64,000 nucleotides of DNA from Thermoplasmata archaeon (lineage in GTDB: Archaea; Thermoplasmatota; DTKX01; VGTL01): assembly GCA_038851035.1 (NCBI GenBank), contig JAWCLH010000002.1, positions 62,001-126,000 of the forward strand, given 5' to 3'. The notes beneath the pieces are model-generated. The model ran no database searches, was not told the origin of the DNA, and saw only the letters and a list, made by a program, of their open reading frames with translations. The position numbers were made by a program, and so were the translations under genes. Shown piece after piece: positions 25,154-33,195 of this stretch (its first letter is position 1; each line of letters begins with the position of its first letter).

Positions 25154-26230
25154 CTACCCTGCCTTAACACTGGTCACACTCCCCACGAGCTCCCTCCCGC
25201 GCAACATCTCCTTTCTGCGCCTGATTATCCCGAGAGAAACTTTCTGCTGATCAATGTTGGCCATCATCCTGGGTAGGAGAATTAGTTTCTTCATAGCCCC
25301 AATCGCACCCGGGAACCGGCTGTCATAAAGCTCCTCCCACCTGAAATGCTCTTCGACATTTGCGTAACAACCGAACAGCAGGAGGTTGTATCGACCGATG
25401 TTGGCCAGGAGGGCGATGGGAATGCTCGGATCCGTCTTAATTGCATTGAGGAGCTTATCCATTGATTTTCTGACCTCCATAAGATAATAAACCAGAATAT
25501 AATCAGGCGGCACGAAGAACTTAGGAAACCTACATACCGGGGGACCGATGATTCTGGCCTCGAGCATCTCTTTGATTCTTCGCTCAATTGTCCTCCGATG
25601 GACGCCGAGCTTCTGGGCTAGAAGGTTCTCATTAGTCCTTATTCCCTCACCGAAGGTCAGCTTTTTCAGGATATTGAAGCAAATGCTGCTCAATTTGAGG
25701 CCGTTCAGGGTTACGGTCTCTCCCCGACTTATCCGCTCTTCTATATTGATTACAGGCGAGTGGGGCTGGTATTTTATCATGTGCTGGTTACTAAACATCA
25801 TTGCGTCTCCAGGGTATCGAGTCTCTCTAGGTGGGATGAGGTTCTCGGCAACAATCCTTTTCCTCCACTCCCCATAGGTGAACAGATTCTCGAAGAATTC
25901 GATAAGAAAGGTATTGTACTCCCCGTCTCGAACATAGAATGCAGCAAAGATGTGTTCATCTTCCTTCAGAAAACGCTCGATTTTTTCCTCCCGGGGAAGG
26001 TCGGCCCTCACGGTGATCATCAGGGGATACTCCTGATATATCCAAAGAAAAGGATAGACAGGTGGATTCAGTATCTCGTGCCCGAAGAGCTCCCTGAGAT
26101 GGTTTTTGATGGTGTTTCGGTGCTTGCTGAACATTGAGGCTAGGGCGCTAATGTTGACCTCCACCCCCGAGCCGGAGCAGAGGTTCTCGAGGATGTCCAG
26201 GTTCAGGATGTCTTCAAGCAATTCAGACAT
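25154..26230 (-). CDS. Two-winged-helix DNA-binding regulator
   Basis: ATG 26230 is chosen; a TATA/BRE pair 23-38 bases upstream implies a leaderless message. The 358-residue protein has two HTH segments. One is near the N-terminus (ISALASMFSKHRNTIKNHLRE, ~28-48); the other is near 210-245 (LLAQKLGVHRRTIERRIKEML). Each is followed by a similar ~110-residue module that opens with a Pro-Pro-Val-Tyr/Cys motif and contains a hydrophobic strand pattern. This looks like an internal duplication of HTH plus sensor, recalling Lrp-like or archaeal two-domain regulators. It is divergent from the six-gene redox operon across 222 AT-rich bases, so it probably regulates that operon and/or itself. The ligand is unknown. 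Confidence 0.75.
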   Translation of the reverse strand: MSELLEDILNLDILENLCSGSGVEVNISALASMFSKHRNTIKNHLRELFGHEILNPPVYPFLWIYQEYPLMITVRADLPREEKIERFLKEDEHIFAAFYVRDGEYNTFLIEFFENLFTYGEWRKRIVAENLIPPRETRYPGDAMMFSNQHMIKYQPHSPVINIEERISRGETVTLNGLKLSSICFNILKKLTFGEGIRTNENLLAQKLGVHRRTIERRIKEMLEARIIGPPVCRFPKFFVPPDYILVYYLMEVRKSMDKLLNAIKTDPSIPIALLANIGRYNLLLFGCYANVEEHFRWEELYDSRFPGAIGAMKKLILLPRMMANIDQQKVSLGIIRRRKEMLRGRELVGSVTSVKAG

Positions 26231-26252
26231 AATAAAAGGTATAAATGTCACT

Positions 26253-26268
26253 TATAATAATATTTCGC
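26253..26268 (-). promoter_or_regulatory. BRE/TATA promoter of the regulator gene
   Basis: On the minus strand GCGAAA (BRE-like) is directly followed by TATTATTATA, ending 23 bases before ATG 26230. That spacing places transcription start at or beside the initiation codon. Confidence 0.55.
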
Positions 26269-26413
26269 TTAAATTTTATCATTATATATCTATTTATTAA
26301 ACTAAAAATAATAATCATTATTGTATAATATAAATAAATGATAATGTTAAATTATGATATTAATCTCTATATTAAATATTAATATCTATTAAAATATAAT
26401 TCAAATATATATA

Positions 26414-26427
26414 CATAATATAAATAT
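26414..26427 (+). promoter_or_regulatory. TATA element of the six-gene redox operon
   Basis: ATAATATAAATATT lies about 30 bases before ATG 26453, and no ribosome-binding sequence precedes that ATG. A leaderless or very short-leader transcript is likely. The whole interval 26231-26452 is extremely AT-rich and includes the direct repeat ATATTAAT at 26357 and 26376. Confidence 0.5.
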
Positions 26428-26452
26428 TCAGACTGTATTCACTCCATCGCAA

Positions 26453-27658
26453 ATGACAAAAATAGAGGGAGAGAGGGCCAGCATCGGTATCCACACGGAC
26501 AAGCTCCTTGCCTATCTTGAGGATACCAATGTGTTCGCGTTTCTGGACAATTGGGGTCCATCGAAGGTTATCCACGTCTATGAGCCCGAAAGCGGAATGC
26601 AGGGCATACTGATAATAGACAATACCACCCAGGGTCCCGGCTGGGGAGGGGTGAGATTTGAGAAAGTCATTAAACCACGTGAGGTTTTCAACAGGGCCCG
26701 GAGTAACACATTGGCCTGTGCGCTCGCGGGCGTCCGTCTTGGCGGGGCGGCGGCGGGAATTCGTCTTCTTGAAGGAGGGGAAATTGACAAAAATCAGCTC
26801 GTGAGGGCATTTGCTCGAGGTGTATCGCCATGCGTTCCTGACTGTTACGTGGCCGCCCCAGACATCAATACGGGGCAGGCCGAGATGCGCGTTTTCGCAG
26901 AAGAAGTCGGGGACAGGCGTGGAGCAACTGGAAAGCCAGTGGAGATGGGTGGTATTCCTTACGAGCTGGGAGTAATGGGCCTCGGTGCAGGTGTGGCTCT
27001 TGAGAGCTTTCTCCAATTGAGTGGGGAAGGCAACAACCTCCCAGGGTCACTAGAGGGGGCTACGGTCGCTCTCCAGGGGTTTGAGTGCGTGGGTGCGGCC
27101 GTGGCGAGATATTGTGTGAATAAGGGAGCTAAGATAGTAGCTCTCTCAGATGACTGGGGAGCGATTTATGACCCTACCGGAATCGATCTTGGCAAGGCCC
27201 TGAAATTTTCTTGCGCAACGAGCGAAAGGCAGTCGCTGGCGCAGTACAAAGTTGGCCATAGAACTTCCCAGGAAGAGATATTGAAGATAGAATGCGACGC
27301 CCTCGTGCTCTGTGGGGGGAGGGGAATGGTGACCGAGGAAATCGCTCATATGATTCAGGCGAAGTGTATTGTGGAGGGTCCCGGCGCTCCGCTCACGCCT
27401 ATTGCAGAGATGGTTCTCACAAGGAGGGGAGTTCCTGTCCTTCCTGACATTCTGACACTTTCCGCGGCGGCGATAGCTTCCTACTCGGAGCTTGAGAGGA
27501 AGAGCTGCGAGGAGGCCTTCTCTCTTATCGGGGCTCGGATAAAATCCGCCGTTAAGGAGATTGTCGAGAGCTCAAAAGAGCCTGGGGTTCCATTCCGGCG
27601 GGTTGCGAAAGAGTTGGCAAGGGAGAGGATATTGAGAGCGATGGAGGGAGGGAAATGA
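26453..27658 (+). CDS. Glutamate-dehydrogenase-family protein lacking both catalytic lysines
   Basis: Two GDH domains are clear. The N-terminal one (~1-185) keeps GWGGVRFE, ALAGVRLGG and AAPDINTGQAEM (the conserved Asp). The Rossmann domain (~190-400) has VALQGFECVGAAVARY and the late EGPGAPLTPIAE segment. In active Glu/Leu/Phe/Val dehydrogenases the core reads 'T.K.ALAGL..GG.KGGI'. Here both lysines are alanine: Ala88 (bases 26714-26716) and Ala100 (26752-26754, in LGGAAAGI). Ordinary deamination is therefore unlikely. The rest is well preserved and full length at 401 residues, which argues for a retained binding or regulatory role. It is first in the operon, and its stop overlaps the next start (ATGA). 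Confidence 0.85.
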   Translation: MTKIEGERASIGIHTDKLLAYLEDTNVFAFLDNWGPSKVIHVYEPESGMQGILIIDNTTQGPGWGGVRFEKVIKPREVFNRARSNTLACALAGVRLGGAAAGIRLLEGGEIDKNQLVRAFARGVSPCVPDCYVAAPDINTGQAEMRVFAEEVGDRRGATGKPVEMGGIPYELGVMGLGAGVALESFLQLSGEGNNLPGSLEGATVALQGFECVGAAVARYCVNKGAKIVALSDDWGAIYDPTGIDLGKALKFSCATSERQSLAQYKVGHRTSQEEILKIECDALVLCGGRGMVTEEIAHMIQAKCIVEGPGAPLTPIAEMVLTRRGVPVLPDILTLSAAAIASYSELERKSCEEAFSLIGARIKSAVKEIVESSKEPGVPFRRVAKELARERILRAMEGGK

Positions 27659-28515
27659 CGGAGAGCATCCCCCAACTGCTCCATCCCCTCATACTTTCAT
27701 GGAACCTCCGCAATCTGGTCGAGGCTCCTTCGAAGGTCTTTGCGGGCTCCTTTTGCATCGAAAGTGTTGAGGAAGGCGAGTACCCCATTCGAGCCCCTAG
27801 GAAGCTTCCCCTAGAACTCCCTTCTGCCGGCAGGAAGACACACATCGCCGGAAGAATGAGCTATGCTGCGGGCCTGGGGATGCCGGAACCCGTCTGGAGC
27901 GTCCACAGAACCATAAAGCTTCCGATGTATAGCTCGCCAGGTGGGGTGGGGCCTGAGGTTATGGAGTGTTTGGTGCGTCTCTGGCCATCTACTACCCTGC
28001 CAGAGGACATACCCTGCGTCGCCCTCGCCAGCCGGTGCTCTGGCCTCTACACGGACGGGCGCGAGGCCCAGAATGTTGCAGTTCTACTTGTCTGGAGCGA
28101 CGGGGTTTGCAGAATCGTCACTCTGGACTGGAGCGAGGGCTCTCCAGAGGACTGCGTCACGCCCGAGTGGTGCATCCAGAGCAGTCCTTTAATGGGAATC
28201 TCCGCCGCCTCCCAGAGCATGGAGAGCATGCACTCAAATCTGTTGTGGAATAACCCGGAATTCTCCATCACTATCCTTCCGAATTTTCTCGGCGCTGGAC
28301 TGCGCGGAGAAAGAGTTGAGTGTCCCCGCCGGCCCTGGAGGCGCGAGTGGATCTATAAAGACCCGGCCGTAGCGCGGGAGGACCTGCGGAAAGTCCTTTC
28401 GACGGTTCAGGCGCTCTTCAGAGTCGAATTCGCTGCTGGAGCCCCAAACGCCAATGCTGATTTTTATTTTGCTCAAGCCAGAAGAGCCGCTTCAGGAGGT
28501 GAGCTGAATGGGTAG
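27655..28515 (+). CDS. Operon protein of unknown function
   Basis: ATG 27655 overlaps the GDH-like stop as ATGA, and the 3' end overlaps the NuoE-like start by eight bases, so it is translationally coupled on both sides and surely expressed. The 286-residue product is soluble, mixed alpha/beta and Trp-rich. It has scattered cysteines (for example ALASRCSGLYTD near 125 and TPEWCIQSS near 172) but no CxxC or other known cofactor motif. No signal peptide or membrane helix is seen. I do not recognise a family. Its place between the GDH-like and electron-transfer genes suggests a subunit or assembly role. Confidence 0.8.
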   Translation: MTESIPQLLHPLILSWNLRNLVEAPSKVFAGSFCIESVEEGEYPIRAPRKLPLELPSAGRKTHIAGRMSYAAGLGMPEPVWSVHRTIKLPMYSSPGGVGPEVMECLVRLWPSTTLPEDIPCVALASRCSGLYTDGREAQNVAVLLVWSDGVCRIVTLDWSEGSPEDCVTPEWCIQSSPLMGISAASQSMESMHSNLLWNNPEFSITILPNFLGAGLRGERVECPRRPWRREWIYKDPAVAREDLRKVLSTVQALFRVEFAAGAPNANADFYFAQARRAASGGELNG

Positions 28516-29098
28516 CGAATCGGATGCCACTGCACAGGTGAAGAAGGTCTCAGTCAAAGATGAACTCGCTGGGGAGATGAAGGGCTGGAAGAACTTCGTC
28601 GACGGCGTGATTGATAGGTACCAAGGGGAGAGGAGATGGCTTATCAACATGCTTTTCGATATTCAGTCCGAGTTCCGATACCTCCCCCACTTCGCCCTGG
28701 AGCATCTGGCGAAGAGACTGGAGGTCTCTCTGAGTGAAATCTACGGAATAGCCACTTTCTACAAGGCATTTACCCTGAAGCCGAGAGGAAAGCACGTAGT
28801 CACAGTATGTCTCGGCACTGCCTGCCACGTTCGCAAATCGCTGGCGGTGCTGGAGGAGTTTCAGCGAGCTCTTGGAATAGAACCGGGAGAGACCACGAAC
28901 GATGGCGAGTTCACGCTCGAGACCGTGAACTGCCTCGGCTGCTGCGCCAAGGGTCCGATAGTGGTCGTTGATGGGGAGTACCACGGCAACATGACGCCAT
29001 CTAGGGTGAGATCGGTGTTGAAAGAGGTGATTAGAGGGGGTAGGGATGGTACTGAAAAATATAGGGGAGCTGGAGACACTCCAGCGCTCGCTTCGTAA
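28508..29098 (+). CDS. NuoE-like [2Fe-2S] thioredoxin-fold subunit
   Basis: It resembles the 24 kDa subunit of complex I and HydC/HoxE proteins. A helical N-terminal part (~25-85, including LPHFALEHLAKRLEVSLSEIYG) precedes the thioredoxin-like domain. The four cluster ligands are in CLGTACH (~100) and CLGCC (~143). ATG 28508 follows GGAGGTGAGCTGA, an ideal ribosome site inside the preceding gene. Such subunits hold one 2Fe-2S cluster beside the FMN subunit NuoF, encoded next with a 53-base overlap. It should sit in a soluble diaphorase module. Confidence 0.93.
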   Translation: MGSESDATAQVKKVSVKDELAGEMKGWKNFVDGVIDRYQGERRWLINMLFDIQSEFRYLPHFALEHLAKRLEVSLSEIYGIATFYKAFTLKPRGKHVVTVCLGTACHVRKSLAVLEEFQRALGIEPGETTNDGEFTLETVNCLGCCAKGPIVVVDGEYHGNMTPSRVRSVLKEVIRGGRDGTEKYRGAGDTPALAS

Positions 29099-30902
29099 TG
29101 AACACAGCGAGAAGAAAAAGTGGGTGGCGGTGTGCGCCGGCACGGGATGCCTCGCCTCCGGCGCGGAGAGCGTGTTCGCCGCCTTTGAGAAAGAGCTGAA
29201 GGAGCGGGGGTTGAAGAAGACTCATGTGTCGATGGTCAAACCGACGGGGTGCCGCGGGTTCTGCGAGCGCGGGCCACATATTGTGATTTATCCTGAGGAA
29301 ATCTCTTATCAAAAGGTCATGCCGCAGGACGTTCCTGAGATTGTAGAAAAGAGCGTTAAGAAGTCAGAGGTTATCGAGAGGCTTCTCTACACCGACCCTG
29401 TTACTGGCGAGAAGGTGGTTCGAGATACCGAGATACCGTTCTACAAGCTGCAGACGAGGCTCATCCTTGGAATGAACCCTACGCTGGACCCCTCGAGCAT
29501 CCAAGACTATATTTCGCGCGGTGGCTACTCCGCTCTTGCAAAGGTCCTCAACAAAATGTCACCGGAGATGGTGATTGAGGAGATCAAGAGGTCCGGCTTG
29601 CGGGGGAGGGGTGGGGCGGGCTTCCCGACGGGTATCAAGTGGGAGACAACTCGTAGGGCGAGAGGCGGGCCGAAATACGTGGTCTGTAATGCGGACGAGG
29701 GTGATCCCGGAGCGTTTATGAACAGGAGTACGCTCGAGGGTAACCCTCACAGCGTCCTCGAGGGCATGGCGATCGGGGCCTACGCCATCGGGGCCTCTGA
29801 GGGAATCGTTTATGTGAGGAATGAATATCCTCTGGCAGTAAAGAATGTCGAGAATGCTGTTAGGCAGGCTCGCGAGTACGGGCTGCTGGGCAAGAACATA
29901 CTCGGATCCAACTTCAGCTTCGATGTGAGTGTGGTCAGGGGTGCTGGGGCATTCGTGTGTGGCGAGGAAACTGCCCTGATAGCCTCCGTTGAAGGAAAGA
30001 AGGGGGTCCCGAGGCAGCGGCCCCCCTACCCCTCCGAGGAGGGTCTGTGGGGGAGGCCGACCAACATAAACAACGTCGAGACCTGGGCCAATGTGCCATT
30101 GATAATAAATAGGGGCGCCGACTGGTACTCGAAGCTTGGGACGCCGGGGAGCAAGGGGACGAAGGTCTTTGCGCTCGTGGGGAAGATAAACAACACGGGC
30201 CTCGTCGAGGTTCCAATGGGCACGACCCTATCAAAAATAATTTATGAAATCGGCGGCGGCCTCCCCGGGGGAAAGAAGCTGAAGGGCGTCCAGATCGGTG
30301 GGCCCTCGGGAGGAATAATACCCGCGGACAAGGTCAATGTTCCAATAGACTACGACTCCCTGAAGGAGCTCGGGGCGATGATGGGCTCAGGCGGGATGGT
30401 GGTGATGGACGAGGACACCTGTATGGTAGACATCGCCAAGTACTTCCTCAAGTTCCTTCTCGAAGAGTCGTGCGGAAAATGCACCACCTGTAGGGAAGGC
30501 ATAGAGAGGATGCTGGAGCTCGTCACGAAGATTACGGAGGGGGAGGCCACCGAAGCCGACTTGAGCCTTCTCGAGGAGCTCGCGGGCATCGTCAGGGACA
30601 CCACGATGTGCGGTCTGGGCAACACGGCCCCAAACCCGGTTCTCTCGACGCTCAGGTACTTTAGGGAGGAGTATCTCGCGCATATAAAAGAAAAGAAATG
30701 TCCGGCTGGTGTGTGCAAGGCCCTGATACGGTTCTCCATAGAGCCTGATAAGTGCACGGGCTGTGGCGCGTGTGCGAAGGCCTGCCCCCAGGGAGCGATA
30801 TCGGGAGAGAAGAAGAAGCCCCACGCAATCTCACTGGAGAAATGTATCAAGTGCGGAATTTGCTACACGACATGCAAGTTCGGCGCGGTCAGGAGGGGGT
30901 GA
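29046..30902 (+). CDS. NuoF/HydB-like FMN subunit with extra ferredoxin domains
   Basis: This 618-residue flavoprotein has, in order: a thioredoxin-like [2Fe-2S] domain (~15-95; CAGTGC, CRGFCERG); the NuoF core with nucleotide/FMN motifs LRGRGGAGFPTGIKW near 190 and ADEGDPGAF near 220; an SLBB segment near 390; the C-terminal 4Fe-4S binding block ESCGKCTTCREG near 475; and a pair of ferredoxin motifs at the end (CTGCGACAKACP and CIKCGICYTTCK). This layout matches HydB of multimeric NAD-linked enzymes rather than plain NuoF. It should exchange electrons between NAD(P)H and a chain of FeS clusters. The NuoG-like gene follows. Confidence 0.94.
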   Translation: MVLKNIGELETLQRSLRNEHSEKKKWVAVCAGTGCLASGAESVFAAFEKELKERGLKKTHVSMVKPTGCRGFCERGPHIVIYPEEISYQKVMPQDVPEIVEKSVKKSEVIERLLYTDPVTGEKVVRDTEIPFYKLQTRLILGMNPTLDPSSIQDYISRGGYSALAKVLNKMSPEMVIEEIKRSGLRGRGGAGFPTGIKWETTRRARGGPKYVVCNADEGDPGAFMNRSTLEGNPHSVLEGMAIGAYAIGASEGIVYVRNEYPLAVKNVENAVRQAREYGLLGKNILGSNFSFDVSVVRGAGAFVCGEETALIASVEGKKGVPRQRPPYPSEEGLWGRPTNINNVETWANVPLIINRGADWYSKLGTPGSKGTKVFALVGKINNTGLVEVPMGTTLSKIIYEIGGGLPGGKKLKGVQIGGPSGGIIPADKVNVPIDYDSLKELGAMMGSGGMVVMDEDTCMVDIAKYFLKFLLEESCGKCTTCREGIERMLELVTKITEGEATEADLSLLEELAGIVRDTTMCGLGNTAPNPVLSTLRYFREEYLAHIKEKKCPAGVCKALIRFSIEPDKCTGCGACAKACPQGAISGEKKKPHAISLEKCIKCGICYTTCKFGAVRRG

Positions 30903-30906
30903 CGGA

Positions 30907-31611
30907 GTGGTCAGTCTCAGGATAAATGGACTGGACGTCGTGGCCGAGGAGGGGATGACGGTTCTTGAGGTCGCGAGGCTCTACGGCATCGACATCCCGA
31001 CGCTGTGCTACGAAGAAGGCCTCTCTTCCTACGGCGGTTGCAGGCTCTGTCTTGTGGAGATAGGCTCCGGGAGGACCGCCAGACTGGTTACCGCCTGCAC
31101 GTATCCGGCCCTCGAGGGCCTTGAGGTCAGGACGCGCTCCTGGAGGGTAACGGCCGCGAGGAAAATGGTGATTGAGCTCCTACTAGCTCGTTGCCCCTCG
31201 TCGAAGACCCTTCAGGACCTCGCGTCCCAATACGGTGTGACGCAGGTTAGATTCAAGCTCAAGAACGAGGACTGCATCCTCTGCGGCCTGTGTGTGAGGA
31301 TTTGCAAAGAGCAGATGATGGCCGAGGCGATCGAATTTGCGGGGCGGGGCAGGGATATGAAGATAACTACGCCCTTCGATGCAAAGTCCGACGCCTGCCG
31401 GCGCTGCGGGGCCTGCATGTACATCTGCCCGGCGTGCATGGCGAGGTGCCAGGGCCCCGACGCGAAAGAGCCTGTCTGCAACGCCTGCCTGAACATGGAG
31501 CCAACGTGCCTGGAGCACTACGATGACGCTCAGTGTTTCATGAGCGAGTCGGCTTGTGGGACCTGTGTGCGAGAGAGGAAAAAGGAAGAGGTGGTAAAGA
31601 AGGAGGGATAA
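30907..31611 (+). CDS. Short NuoG/HydA-N-like iron-sulfur subunit
   Basis: GTG 30907 is used, behind GAGGGGGTGACGGA; a longer frame would run back through the NuoF-like ferredoxin domain. The 234 residues hold a plant-type [2Fe-2S] domain (CYEEGLSSYGGCRLC, later CTYPA) and a paired 4Fe-4S ferredoxin module (CILCGLCVRICK near 120, CRRCGACMYICPACMARC near 162). A further cysteine-rich tail follows (CNACL, CLEHY, CFMSES, CGTC). The catalytic parts of NuoG, formate dehydrogenase or FeFe-hydrogenase are absent. It therefore serves only as a wire, presumably from the NuoF-like flavin to the GltB-like protein encoded three bases downstream. Confidence 0.9.
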   Translation: MVSLRINGLDVVAEEGMTVLEVARLYGIDIPTLCYEEGLSSYGGCRLCLVEIGSGRTARLVTACTYPALEGLEVRTRSWRVTAARKMVIELLLARCPSSKTLQDLASQYGVTQVRFKLKNEDCILCGLCVRICKEQMMAEAIEFAGRGRDMKITTPFDAKSDACRRCGACMYICPACMARCQGPDAKEPVCNACLNMEPTCLEHYDDAQCFMSESACGTCVRERKKEEVVKKEG

Positions 31612-31614
31612 AGA

Positions 31615-33195
31615 ATGTCTCTGTCTAAGGTGAATGCAACAGCGGCGACGCTGACTAAGAATAGGACCGAAGGGGCAATATCACGGCTGAGCGGGTTGTG
31701 CGCGACCTGCGTCGATGGCTGCATAGGAATGTGCGAGGTGGGCAAGTCGGCCTACCGGGGGCGCGAGGTGCTCTATCCCCAGCCCTTCGGAATTATAACT
31801 AGTGCATCCGAGAAAATCTATCCGGTGGACTATTCGCACTTCACTATCATGGGAACCACCGTGGGAGCAGTGGGGATAGAGGCCGACAGCAACAAGGCGA
31901 TTTTCCCAAGTGTGAATCTTGAGAGAAGGATAGGGAGGGATAGGGGTATAAGGCTCCGCCTGCCCTTCATTGTTCCGGGCCTGGGCTCCACTTGGATAGC
32001 GAAGGCCAACTGGGAGGGTCTGGCGATCGGCTGCGCCCTCGCAGGCATCCCTCTGACAATCGGTGAGAATGTCTGCGGTATGGACCCGAAGGCTGAGATA
32101 AAGGACGGCAGAGTCGTCAGGTCCGAGGAGCTGGAGTGGAGGGTCAATCTCTACAGGAAGTGGCAGCAAGACGGCTATGGTGAAATCGTGGTCCAGGCGA
32201 ATGTGGAGGACACGATGCTTGGGGTCCATGAGTATGCGATAAAGAAGCTCGGAGTTAGGTGCGTCGAGATGAAGTGGGGACAGGGAGCAAAGGACATTGG
32301 GGGTGAGGTGAAAATAAAGGATCTCAGGATGGCCCAGCTCCTGAAGAGCCGGGGCTACATCGTGCACCCCGACCCGATGGATCCGTCTGTGATAAAGGCT
32401 TTCGAGAGGGGCACATTTAAGGAATTCGAGAGACACTCGCGGGTGGGAATGGTCTCGAAAGAGGCTTTTTTAAAGAGGGTCGAGGAGCTCCGAAGCATGG
32501 GAGCTAAGTACATCTTTCTGAAGACGGGCGCCTACAGACCGGCGGACCTGGCTAGGGCGGTGAAGTTCTCGTCCCTTGCGGGAATTGATCTCCTAACAGT
32601 GGACGGCGCCGGCGGCGGGACGGGCATGAGCCCATGGAGAATGATGAACGAGTGGGGGGTACCTCCCGTCGAGCTTCACTCCCTTCTTTATAAATACTGT
32701 GAGCGTCTGGCTGGAGAGGGGAAGTACGTCCCGGACATTGCCGTGGCCGGAGGGTTCGCGTTCGAGGACCAGGTCTTCAAGGGCCTCGCCCTCTGTGCCC
32801 CCTATGCCAAGCTTGTAGGAATGGCCCGTGCCCCCCTCACGGCTGCGATGGTTGGAAAGACGCTAGGGCGTAAAATAAAGGAGGGTCAGGTGCCCGTGTA
32901 TGTCAGACGCTTTGGGACCTCGCCGGAGGAGATTTTCGTCACGGCGCCGGAGCTGGCTGCCAGGCTTGGGGAGAGGTTCAAGGAGGTTCCGACGGGTGCG
33001 CTCGGCCTCTACACCTATCTCGAGAGGGTTGCGCAGGGTTTGCGCCAGCTGATGTGTGGGAGCCGCAAGTTCTCCTTGGACTATATCTCGCGGGACGATA
33101 TCGCGGCTCTGACCAGGGAGGCGGCCGAAATCAGTGGAATCAGGTATGTGATGGACGCTGACCGGGAGGAGGCGGAGAGGATTTTAAAGGAATAA
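31615..33195 (+). CDS. FMN glutamate-synthase-domain (GltB central domain-like) oxidoreductase
   Basis: The 526-residue protein matches the FMN-binding TIM-barrel of glutamate synthase. Seen are the long Val-Gln-Ala strand region, LLTVDGAGGGTGMSPWRM near 325 (compare 'DGGTGASP'), the segment from the following helix to DIAVAGGFAFEDQV, and a phosphate-binding loop region VGMARAP. There is no glutaminase domain. The usual CPVGI-type 3Fe-4S cysteine block was not found. Instead an N-terminal motif CATCVDGCIGMC (~27-38) could bind a cluster. ATG 31615 follows GGAGGGATAAAGA. It is last in the operon and is probably its catalytic subunit. The substrate may be glutamate/2-oxoglutarate or another imino/amino pair. 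Confidence 0.85.
   Translation: MSLSKVNATAATLTKNRTEGAISRLSGLCATCVDGCIGMCEVGKSAYRGREVLYPQPFGIITSASEKIYPVDYSHFTIMGTTVGAVGIEADSNKAIFPSVNLERRIGRDRGIRLRLPFIVPGLGSTWIAKANWEGLAIGCALAGIPLTIGENVCGMDPKAEIKDGRVVRSEELEWRVNLYRKWQQDGYGEIVVQANVEDTMLGVHEYAIKKLGVRCVEMKWGQGAKDIGGEVKIKDLRMAQLLKSRGYIVHPDPMDPSVIKAFERGTFKEFERHSRVGMVSKEAFLKRVEELRSMGAKYIFLKTGAYRPADLARAVKFSSLAGIDLLTVDGAGGGTGMSPWRMMNEWGVPPVELHSLLYKYCERLAGEGKYVPDIAVAGGFAFEDQVFKGLALCAPYAKLVGMARAPLTAAMVGKTLGRKIKEGQVPVYVRRFGTSPEEIFVTAPELAARLGERFKEVPTGALGLYTYLERVAQGLRQLMCGSRKFSLDYISRDDIAALTREAAEISGIRYVMDADREEAERILKE

Follow-up and report, generated by a model that had tools for sequence, protein, structure and literature searches.

A Bfu-family operon with a glutamate-synthase-like flavoprotein partner in a Thermoplasmata archaeon

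We examined a 64,000 bp stretch of the genome of a Thermoplasmata archaeon (GCA_038851035.1, contig JAWCLH010000002.1, positions 62,001 to 126,000; the assembly holds 2.69 Mb in 50 contigs), referred to here as the window. We describe an operon at its positions 26453-33195, where ORF calling placed six open reading frames (ORFs) on the + strand with short overlaps or gaps between successive genes. Strong sequence similarities assign its NuoE-like protein to BfuC, its NuoF-like protein to BfuB and its NuoG-like protein to BfuA, the core subunits of the electron-bifurcating Bfu (HydABC-type) family. We suggest that the operon encodes a Bfu-family electron-bifurcating enzyme with a glutamate-synthase-like flavin mononucleotide (FMN) protein as its catalytic partner, denoted Glt-Bfu, with the glutamate/2-oxoglutarate plus ammonia couple as the most likely third substrate; the probability of this reading is, in our estimate, about one half. 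The cassette recurs in other genomes and suggests a hitherto undescribed coupling of ammonia or glutamate chemistry to ferredoxin and NADH.

The Bfu core and its GltB-like partner

The core genes and their sites are located as follows.

28508-29098, + strand: BfuC (NuoE/HydC-like) [2Fe-2S] subunit; 148 bits to HydC 8a6t_C and 7t2r_C
29046-30902, + strand: BfuB (NuoF/HydB-like), with the FMN/NADH site; 850 bits to Acetomicrobium mobile HydB 7t2r_B over residues 26-616
29133-29264, + strand: BfuB N-terminal [2Fe-2S] ligands C30, C35, C69 and C73, aligned with CxGTGC...TGCxGxC of HydB
30753-30875, + strand: BfuB C-terminal 2x[4Fe-4S] ligands C570-C610, aligned with HydB
30907-31611, + strand: BfuA (short NuoG/HoxU-like electron wire); 127 bits to 9mqx_A
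31435-31566, + strand: BfuA 8-cysteine tail C177, C181, C191, C194, C201, C210, C217 and C220, invariant in 74 sequences
31615-33195, + strand: GltB-like FMN-barrel flavoprotein, the proposed catalytic subunit; Glu_synthase PF01645
31699-31734, + strand: GltB-like four-cysteine site C29-x2-C32-x3-C36-x3-C40, invariant in 82 sequences and three stand-alone paralogues
32605-32634, + strand: GAGGGTGMSP, counterpart of the DGGTGA/SP motif of glutamate synthase (GltS) in the alignment with canonical glutamate synthase (GOGAT)

BfuC matched Pfam 2Fe-2S_thioredx at 168 bits, and three of its ligands (C101, C106 and C142) were invariant among 63 sequences, the fourth (C146) being kept in 98% of them. 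BfuB showed the domain order thioredoxin-like 2Fe-2S at the N-terminus, then Complex1_51K, SLBB and NADH_4Fe-4S, and a 2x[4Fe-4S] ferredoxin at the C-terminus; it scored 850 bits with 7t2r_B and 791 bits with 8a6t_B, whereas complex I NuoF scored 403 bits. The ligands of its B1 4Fe-4S cluster (C476, C479, C482 and C522) are kept, as are C552 and C557, so that all canonical Bfu cluster ligands of BfuB and BfuC are present in the window proteins, but not in every relative. The BfuB, BfuC and BfuA sequence features by which PMC9304861 delimits the family are found in the window core. The operon has neither membrane subunits nor a long NuoG, and the extra BfuB clusters place it with Bfu rather than with the NADH module of complex I.

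BfuB carries a fused GltD-type flavin adenine dinucleotide (FAD) module (Fer4_20 plus Pyr_redox_2, domain-scanned in one representative) in 30 of 66 loci, and the C-terminal ferredoxin pattern is then gone; the window BfuB is the unfused form. GltD-type FAD domains are the partner of GltB in glutamate synthase. At the N-terminal 2Fe-2S site of BfuB, many relatives (e.g. L088, L078 and L091) have GTCG where CxGTGC is expected, so that a ligand described in the literature as invariant in Bfu is variable in this group. In archaeal relatives, a cysteine-rich, zinc-ribbon-like protein of 135-151 amino acids, not found in the window, is encoded between BfuC and the GltD-fused BfuB (L028:4665-5120; L122:9390-9797; L149:4169-4585; L152:5341-5748, - strand).

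BfuA consists of Fer2_4 and ferredoxin domains of the NuoG/HoxU type with no molybdopterin domain, and its nearest match was BfuA (247 residues) of 9mqx, a bifurcating aldehyde oxidoreductase with tungsten. Twenty of its cysteines are invariant in the 74 cassettes compared; 12 of these fit the ordinary set of one 2Fe-2S and two 4Fe-4S clusters, and the other 8 form the C-terminal tail. In a sample drawn with a BfuA query from 390 genomes of the phylum, and therefore not selected through GltB, all 15 loci with the tail (the window included) have GltB directly downstream, while this was the case for 0 of the 10 BfuA loci whose match ended at or before residue 190. As the tail occurs only with GltB downstream, we infer that it is a wire to GltB. 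The distances among GltB proteins also correlated best with those of BfuA (r = 0.87, vs 0.80 for BfuB and 0.71 for BfuC), and together with the GltB-specific tail this speaks for a contact between BfuA and GltB. Elsewhere in the same genome, on contig C1 (L150:3119-14234, - strand), a second BfuB is found with a BfuA of 1124 aa that has no such tail; the same cluster includes genes resembling HdrABC, MvhD and FrhB types, with names given by eye except for the Bfu subunits.

The GltB-like protein matched PF01645 at 40.7 bits (residues 279-410, cut-off 20.4) and holds counterparts of the FMN-barrel motifs of GltS, namely QGAK, the lysine strand and GGGTG-SP. In the predicted model, the blocks of the barrel were mostly above 80 in predicted local distance difference test (pLDDT), and a fold search with the barrel returned FMN hydroxy-acid oxidases and glutamate synthase 1ofd as top structural matches. 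The 3Fe-4S cysteine motif of GltS was not found in the GltB-like alignment, where the only conserved cysteines are the N-terminal C29, C32, C36 and C40; this four-cysteine site is presumed to be an Fe-S electron entry. The class II glutaminase domain (GATase_2) is absent from the operon and was not detected in the window genome with a model that also misses Sulfolobus among the controls. The GXGXG domain is absent from the operon as well, and one GXGXG protein is encoded on another contig of the genome, next to a different GltB-like gene. With the glutaminase, GXGXG and the 3Fe-4S motif missing, a full glutamate synthase was ruled out for this protein.

On contig C11 of the same genome (L104:5488-7483), a split GXGXG protein lies beside a different GltB-like FMN protein, with no GATase_2 match genome-wide. 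Stand-alone paralogues of the GltB-like protein, 46-52% identical and in their own transcription unit, have the same four-cysteine motif where aligned (L058:4018-5604, L064:3686-5272, L101:8793-10376 and L102:8698-10344, all - strand), and the one in L101 adjoins a homoserine-dehydrogenase-like gene.

The earlier note on this DNA, made from the letters alone, had stated that no hydrogenase, molybdopterin or membrane subunit accompanies these genes, and our domain scan of the operon agrees. No hydrogenase, molybdopterin or aldehyde oxidoreductase subunit was found in the operon by Pfam scan, and no such subunit recurred in the neighbour clustering of the loci; on these two results, a known catalytic subunit hidden near the cassette was rejected.

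Cassette conservation and the glutamate neighbourhood

Relatives of the GltB-like protein are encoded on at least 578 stretches of genome contigs. The best 80 loci, at 69-76% identity, are spread across bacteria and archaea, with the closest relatives in Planctomycetota, Aminicenantes, Zixibacteria, WOR-3, Bacillota, ANME-1, Methanoperedens and Thermoplasmatota. Conserved synteny, the absence of which would have refuted the proposed complex, was looked for in these loci: the order BfuC-BfuB-BfuA-GltB was intact in every one of the 50 loci that have 6.3 kb or more of upstream sequence, and GltB was directly preceded by BfuA in 73 of 73, thus the arrangement is far beyond chance. The six-gene complex that had been proposed is thereby narrowed: the four genes make up the general cassette, and the first two genes of the operon, a pseudoenzyme related to glutamate dehydrogenase (pseudo-GDH) and ORF2, are a lineage accessory.

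Glutamate dehydrogenase (GDH) genes adjoin the cassette in 15 of the 80 loci, against 0.34 expected from the GDH counts in 37 host genomes, and glutamine synthetase (GS) genes in 4 of the 80, against 0.33 expected. The neighbouring GDHs are of several types and lie on either side of the cassette and on either strand, hence the link is unlikely to come from a single inherited arrangement. Such neighbours were also found without selection through GltB, with a GDH 48 bases downstream of GltB in L149, a GS downstream in L151 and both in L122. We consider this enrichment an independent pointer to glutamate and ammonia. Together, the Bfu core ligands, the synteny and the GDH/GS context support, at the sequence level, the initial suggestion of an amino-acid redox complex that is linked to ferredoxin and/or NAD and possibly bifurcates electrons.

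Several points weigh against a bifurcating enzyme of glutamate metabolism. The loci compared for synteny were the best 80 by similarity to the window GltB, and the P values of the neighbourhood analysis take no account of common ancestry. The Pfam match spans the second half of the GltB-like barrel only, the profile comparison with canonical GOGAT was weak (hhalign probability 10%, E 0.003), and by its parts the protein is not a glutamate synthase. A one-chain BfuA-GltB model, with the TAA read through, reached a predicted TM-score (pTM) of 0.65 with the tail disordered and the contact not fixed. An ELFV dehydrogenase is present in 31 of the 37 host genomes, so that the cassette as sole route to glutamate was ruled out. 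Alpha-hydroxy-acid oxidases also ranked in the fold search, and the substrate is not decided by the fold. Finally, at high ammonium glutamate could be made with no need for ferredoxin.

Perhaps the Bfu core and the GltB-like subunit do work together while the barrel has been re-purposed for another imine, an enoate or a hydroxy acid, with the GDH and GS neighbours reflecting general nitrogen regulation. The missing parts that define GltS, the low similarity to canonical GltS and the hydroxy-acid oxidases ranking as high as GltS in the fold search would all fit this. However, the strong enrichment of GDH, independent of its type, and of GS beside the cassette, as well as the GltD fusion partner on BfuB, point to glutamate, and we regard a different substrate as rather unlikely.

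Among the 37 host genomes, single-contig chromosomes included, GATase_2 matched in 9 and not in 28, and GXGXG matched in 11 and not in 26. The cassette could explain the assimilation of scarce ammonium in many sediment-dwelling anaerobes without matches to canonical GOGAT domains. In many bacterial loci, a histidine kinase and a sigma-54-/NtrC-type response regulator are encoded upstream of BfuC (e.g. L056:334-3527); the neighbour cluster of the response regulator spans 33 loci, many of them planctomycete.

Proposed electron route and relation to known systems

If the subunits form a complex with FMN and the expected clusters, BfuBC would exchange electrons with NAD(H) through its FMN and with ferredoxin through its C-terminal clusters. 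Electrons would pass through the 2Fe-2S and 4Fe-4S clusters of BfuA into its 8-cysteine tail, and from the tail through the four-cysteine cluster of the GltB-like subunit to the FMN of the latter. The third reaction at this FMN would most likely be the formation of glutamate from 2-oxoglutarate and free ammonia by reductive amination, or the reverse. In the synthetic direction, electrons from reduced ferredoxin and NADH would be confurcated with a driving force above that of NADH alone, and such a larger driving force would allow glutamate to be made when ammonium is low, with none of the ATP expense of glutamine synthetase.

The glutamate couple has an E0' near -0.12 V. From this value we computed about -270 mV at 1 mM ammonium and -330 mV at 10 µM (with 0.5 mM 2-oxoglutarate and 50 mM glutamate). 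PMC9304861 puts NADH near -280 mV and ferredoxin at about -500 mV; by this calculation, the couple lies at or inside the NADH-ferredoxin gap at these ammonium levels, and at low ammonium confurcation would make sense.

A multi-donor glutamate synthase or dehydrogenase without true bifurcation, in which NADH or ferredoxin could each reduce the FMN barrel and the NuoEFG-like proteins would be a diaphorase only, might work as well, since, with the same standard potential, NADH alone would suffice as donor at high ammonium. Many homologues with altered N-terminal BfuB ligands, or with the C-terminal ferredoxin lost to the GltD fusion, are in its favour. The window, however, keeps the full Bfu ligand set, which PMC9304861 ties to tight coupling in characterised members, and non-bifurcating NuoEF homologues are described there as lacking these extra clusters; we consider this alternative improbable.

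It would be still harder to argue for a catabolic complex of amino-acid-fermenting archaea, in which glutamate is oxidised to 2-oxoglutarate and ammonia and the electrons are split to NAD+ and ferredoxin. GDH, the commonest neighbour, is the usual catabolic entry, and Bfu enzymes are described as reversible (PMC9304861); but the glutamate couple is too positive for ferredoxin reduction unless ammonia and 2-oxoglutarate are extremely low, and GS beside several cassettes fits assimilation better, which makes a catabolic role very unlikely.

Returning to confurcation, a nitrogen-assimilating Bfu member would, if true, tie ferredoxin energy directly to ammonia. A broader proposal, which we put forward tentatively and with clearly less than even confidence, is that widespread electron-confurcating glutamate synthases, using 2-oxoglutarate, free ammonia, ferredoxin and NADH, spare energy-limited anaerobes the ATP spent in GS-GOGAT, and that in some archaea pseudo-GDH, ORF2 and a regulator are added to them.

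H2, formate, NADPH and aldehydes are among the third substrates known or predicted for Bfu enzymes. The family is described as coupling NAD(H), ferredoxin and a third substrate reversibly, with 17 BfuB clades of no assigned function (PMC9304861). Neither glutamate nor GltB is mentioned in the main text of that paper, and the open literature searched held no account of a GltB-linked Bfu, nor of a glutamate synthase that bifurcates or confurcates electrons. As the cassette is common and widespread, it is probably one of the unassigned functions left open there, and its BfuB probably falls among the unassigned clades.

The Type 2 Wor-Bfu (9mqx) and the A. mobile NiFe-HydABCSL (7t2r) resemble the window in having a BfuBC core with all FMN and Fe-S ligands; the short BfuA of Wor-Bfu is the one most like ours, and in Bfu systems the catalytic site is on an added subunit, as proposed here. 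The window differs from them in that a GltB-like FMN barrel takes the place of a hydrogenase, aldehyde oxidoreductase or formate dehydrogenase as this subunit, and in the extra 8-cysteine tail of BfuA. Bacterial GltBD (GOGAT) has the FMN-barrel motifs in common with the GltB-like protein, as well as the GltD-type module seen on BfuB of homologous loci; unlike GltBD, the window protein has no glutaminase, GXGXG or 3Fe-4S cysteines, and its electrons would arrive through BfuABC and the new four-cysteine site. The Stn/Nfn-Bfu transhydrogenase, a NuoG-GltD fusion, likewise joins a BfuBC-type core to a module of the glutamate-synthase toolkit, but with GltD (NADPH) on BfuA and no GltB-type FMN barrel (PMC10482914). 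The sub-type I BfuB of Hydrogenedentota, with C-terminal DPD_II and FAD/NAD(P) domains, has the domain order of the fused BfuB in cassette relatives; there it belongs to [FeFe]-hydrogenases, whereas the window BfuB is unfused (PMC11406978). The F420-dependent glutamate synthase clusters of ANME (FGltS, FrhB10) are another case of anaerobic archaea rewiring a glutamate-synthase subunit to a different donor, which is an FrhB-type F420 module rather than BfuABC (PMC9012536).

Accessory genes and the locus

The remaining features of the operon and its upstream side are the following.

26453-27658, + strand: GDH-like pseudoenzyme; Pfam ELFV, alignment with true GDHs and two orthologues
27655-28515, + strand: ORF2, of no known family or fold, with pseudo-GDH wherever found
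25154-26251, - strand: divergent regulator (helix-turn-helix protein), with HTH_11 over the Pfam cut-off
26252-26452, + strand: AT-rich intergenic region, by inspection of the sequence the probable operon promoter

The overlapping or near-abutting junctions that the earlier note had claimed for the six ORFs were all re-found on the + strand, and its domain calls (GDH fold, NuoE, NuoF, short NuoG and GltB-like) were matched by the Pfam/NCBIfam scan. The first two genes overlap by 4 bases (ATGA), ORF2 and BfuC by 8 bases, and BfuC and BfuB by 53 bases. BfuA follows after a 4-base gap and opens with GTG at 30907, the position at which its homologues begin, its frame being open mechanically from 30763; a 3-base gap separates its TAA stop from the GltB-like gene. 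No Shine-Dalgarno sequence precedes the first ATG of the operon, and a leaderless start for the first gene is plausible. No tRNA was found directly downstream of the operon.

The first gene matched ELFV_dehydrog at 112 bits and ELFV_dehydrog_N at 55 bits. Its motifs are changed from GPxKGG to GPGWGG (K64W), from MTWK to NTLA (K88A) and from GGAK to GGAA (K100A), and the Rossmann motif from GFGNVG to GFECVG, in which the second glycine of GxGxxG is gone. The view of this protein as a pseudoenzyme holds for the window and for one orthologue (L122), in both of which all three substrate-binding or catalytic lysines and the Rossmann glycine pattern are lost; the orthologue in L123 keeps two of the lysines and lacks that of GGAK as well as the glycine pattern.

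ORF2 gave no Pfam, NCBIfam, PDB, profile or fold match, and an AlphaFold2 model built from three sequences was poor (mean pLDDT 51). In the 390 genomes of the phylum, orthologues were found in two other genomes (42% and 39% identical), both directly following pseudo-GDH and accompanied by a divergent orthologue of the window regulator. Regulator orthologues stand divergently beside pseudo-GDH in L122 (62% identical), L123 (46%) and L098 (about 65%). By these occurrences, pseudo-GDH, ORF2 and the regulator are an accessory unit retained in a few relatives; a role in sensing glutamate or 2-oxoglutarate, or as a scaffold, would be speculative. All six genes occur in the window order, with the zinc-ribbon gene inserted, in L122, from a genome of another family of the phylum, where they lie between a true GDH upstream and a GS downstream.

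In genome G001, from the same family as the window, a single 486-aa ORF (L098:9155-10615, - strand) at the corresponding locus joins pseudo-GDH in frame with GltB, of which only the C-terminal half is present. The fused ORF has internal deletions and adjoins the regulator and purH, ORF2 and NuoEFG are gone, and the neighbouring true GDH carries an in-frame stop; this locus could be the result of decay or of an assembly fault.

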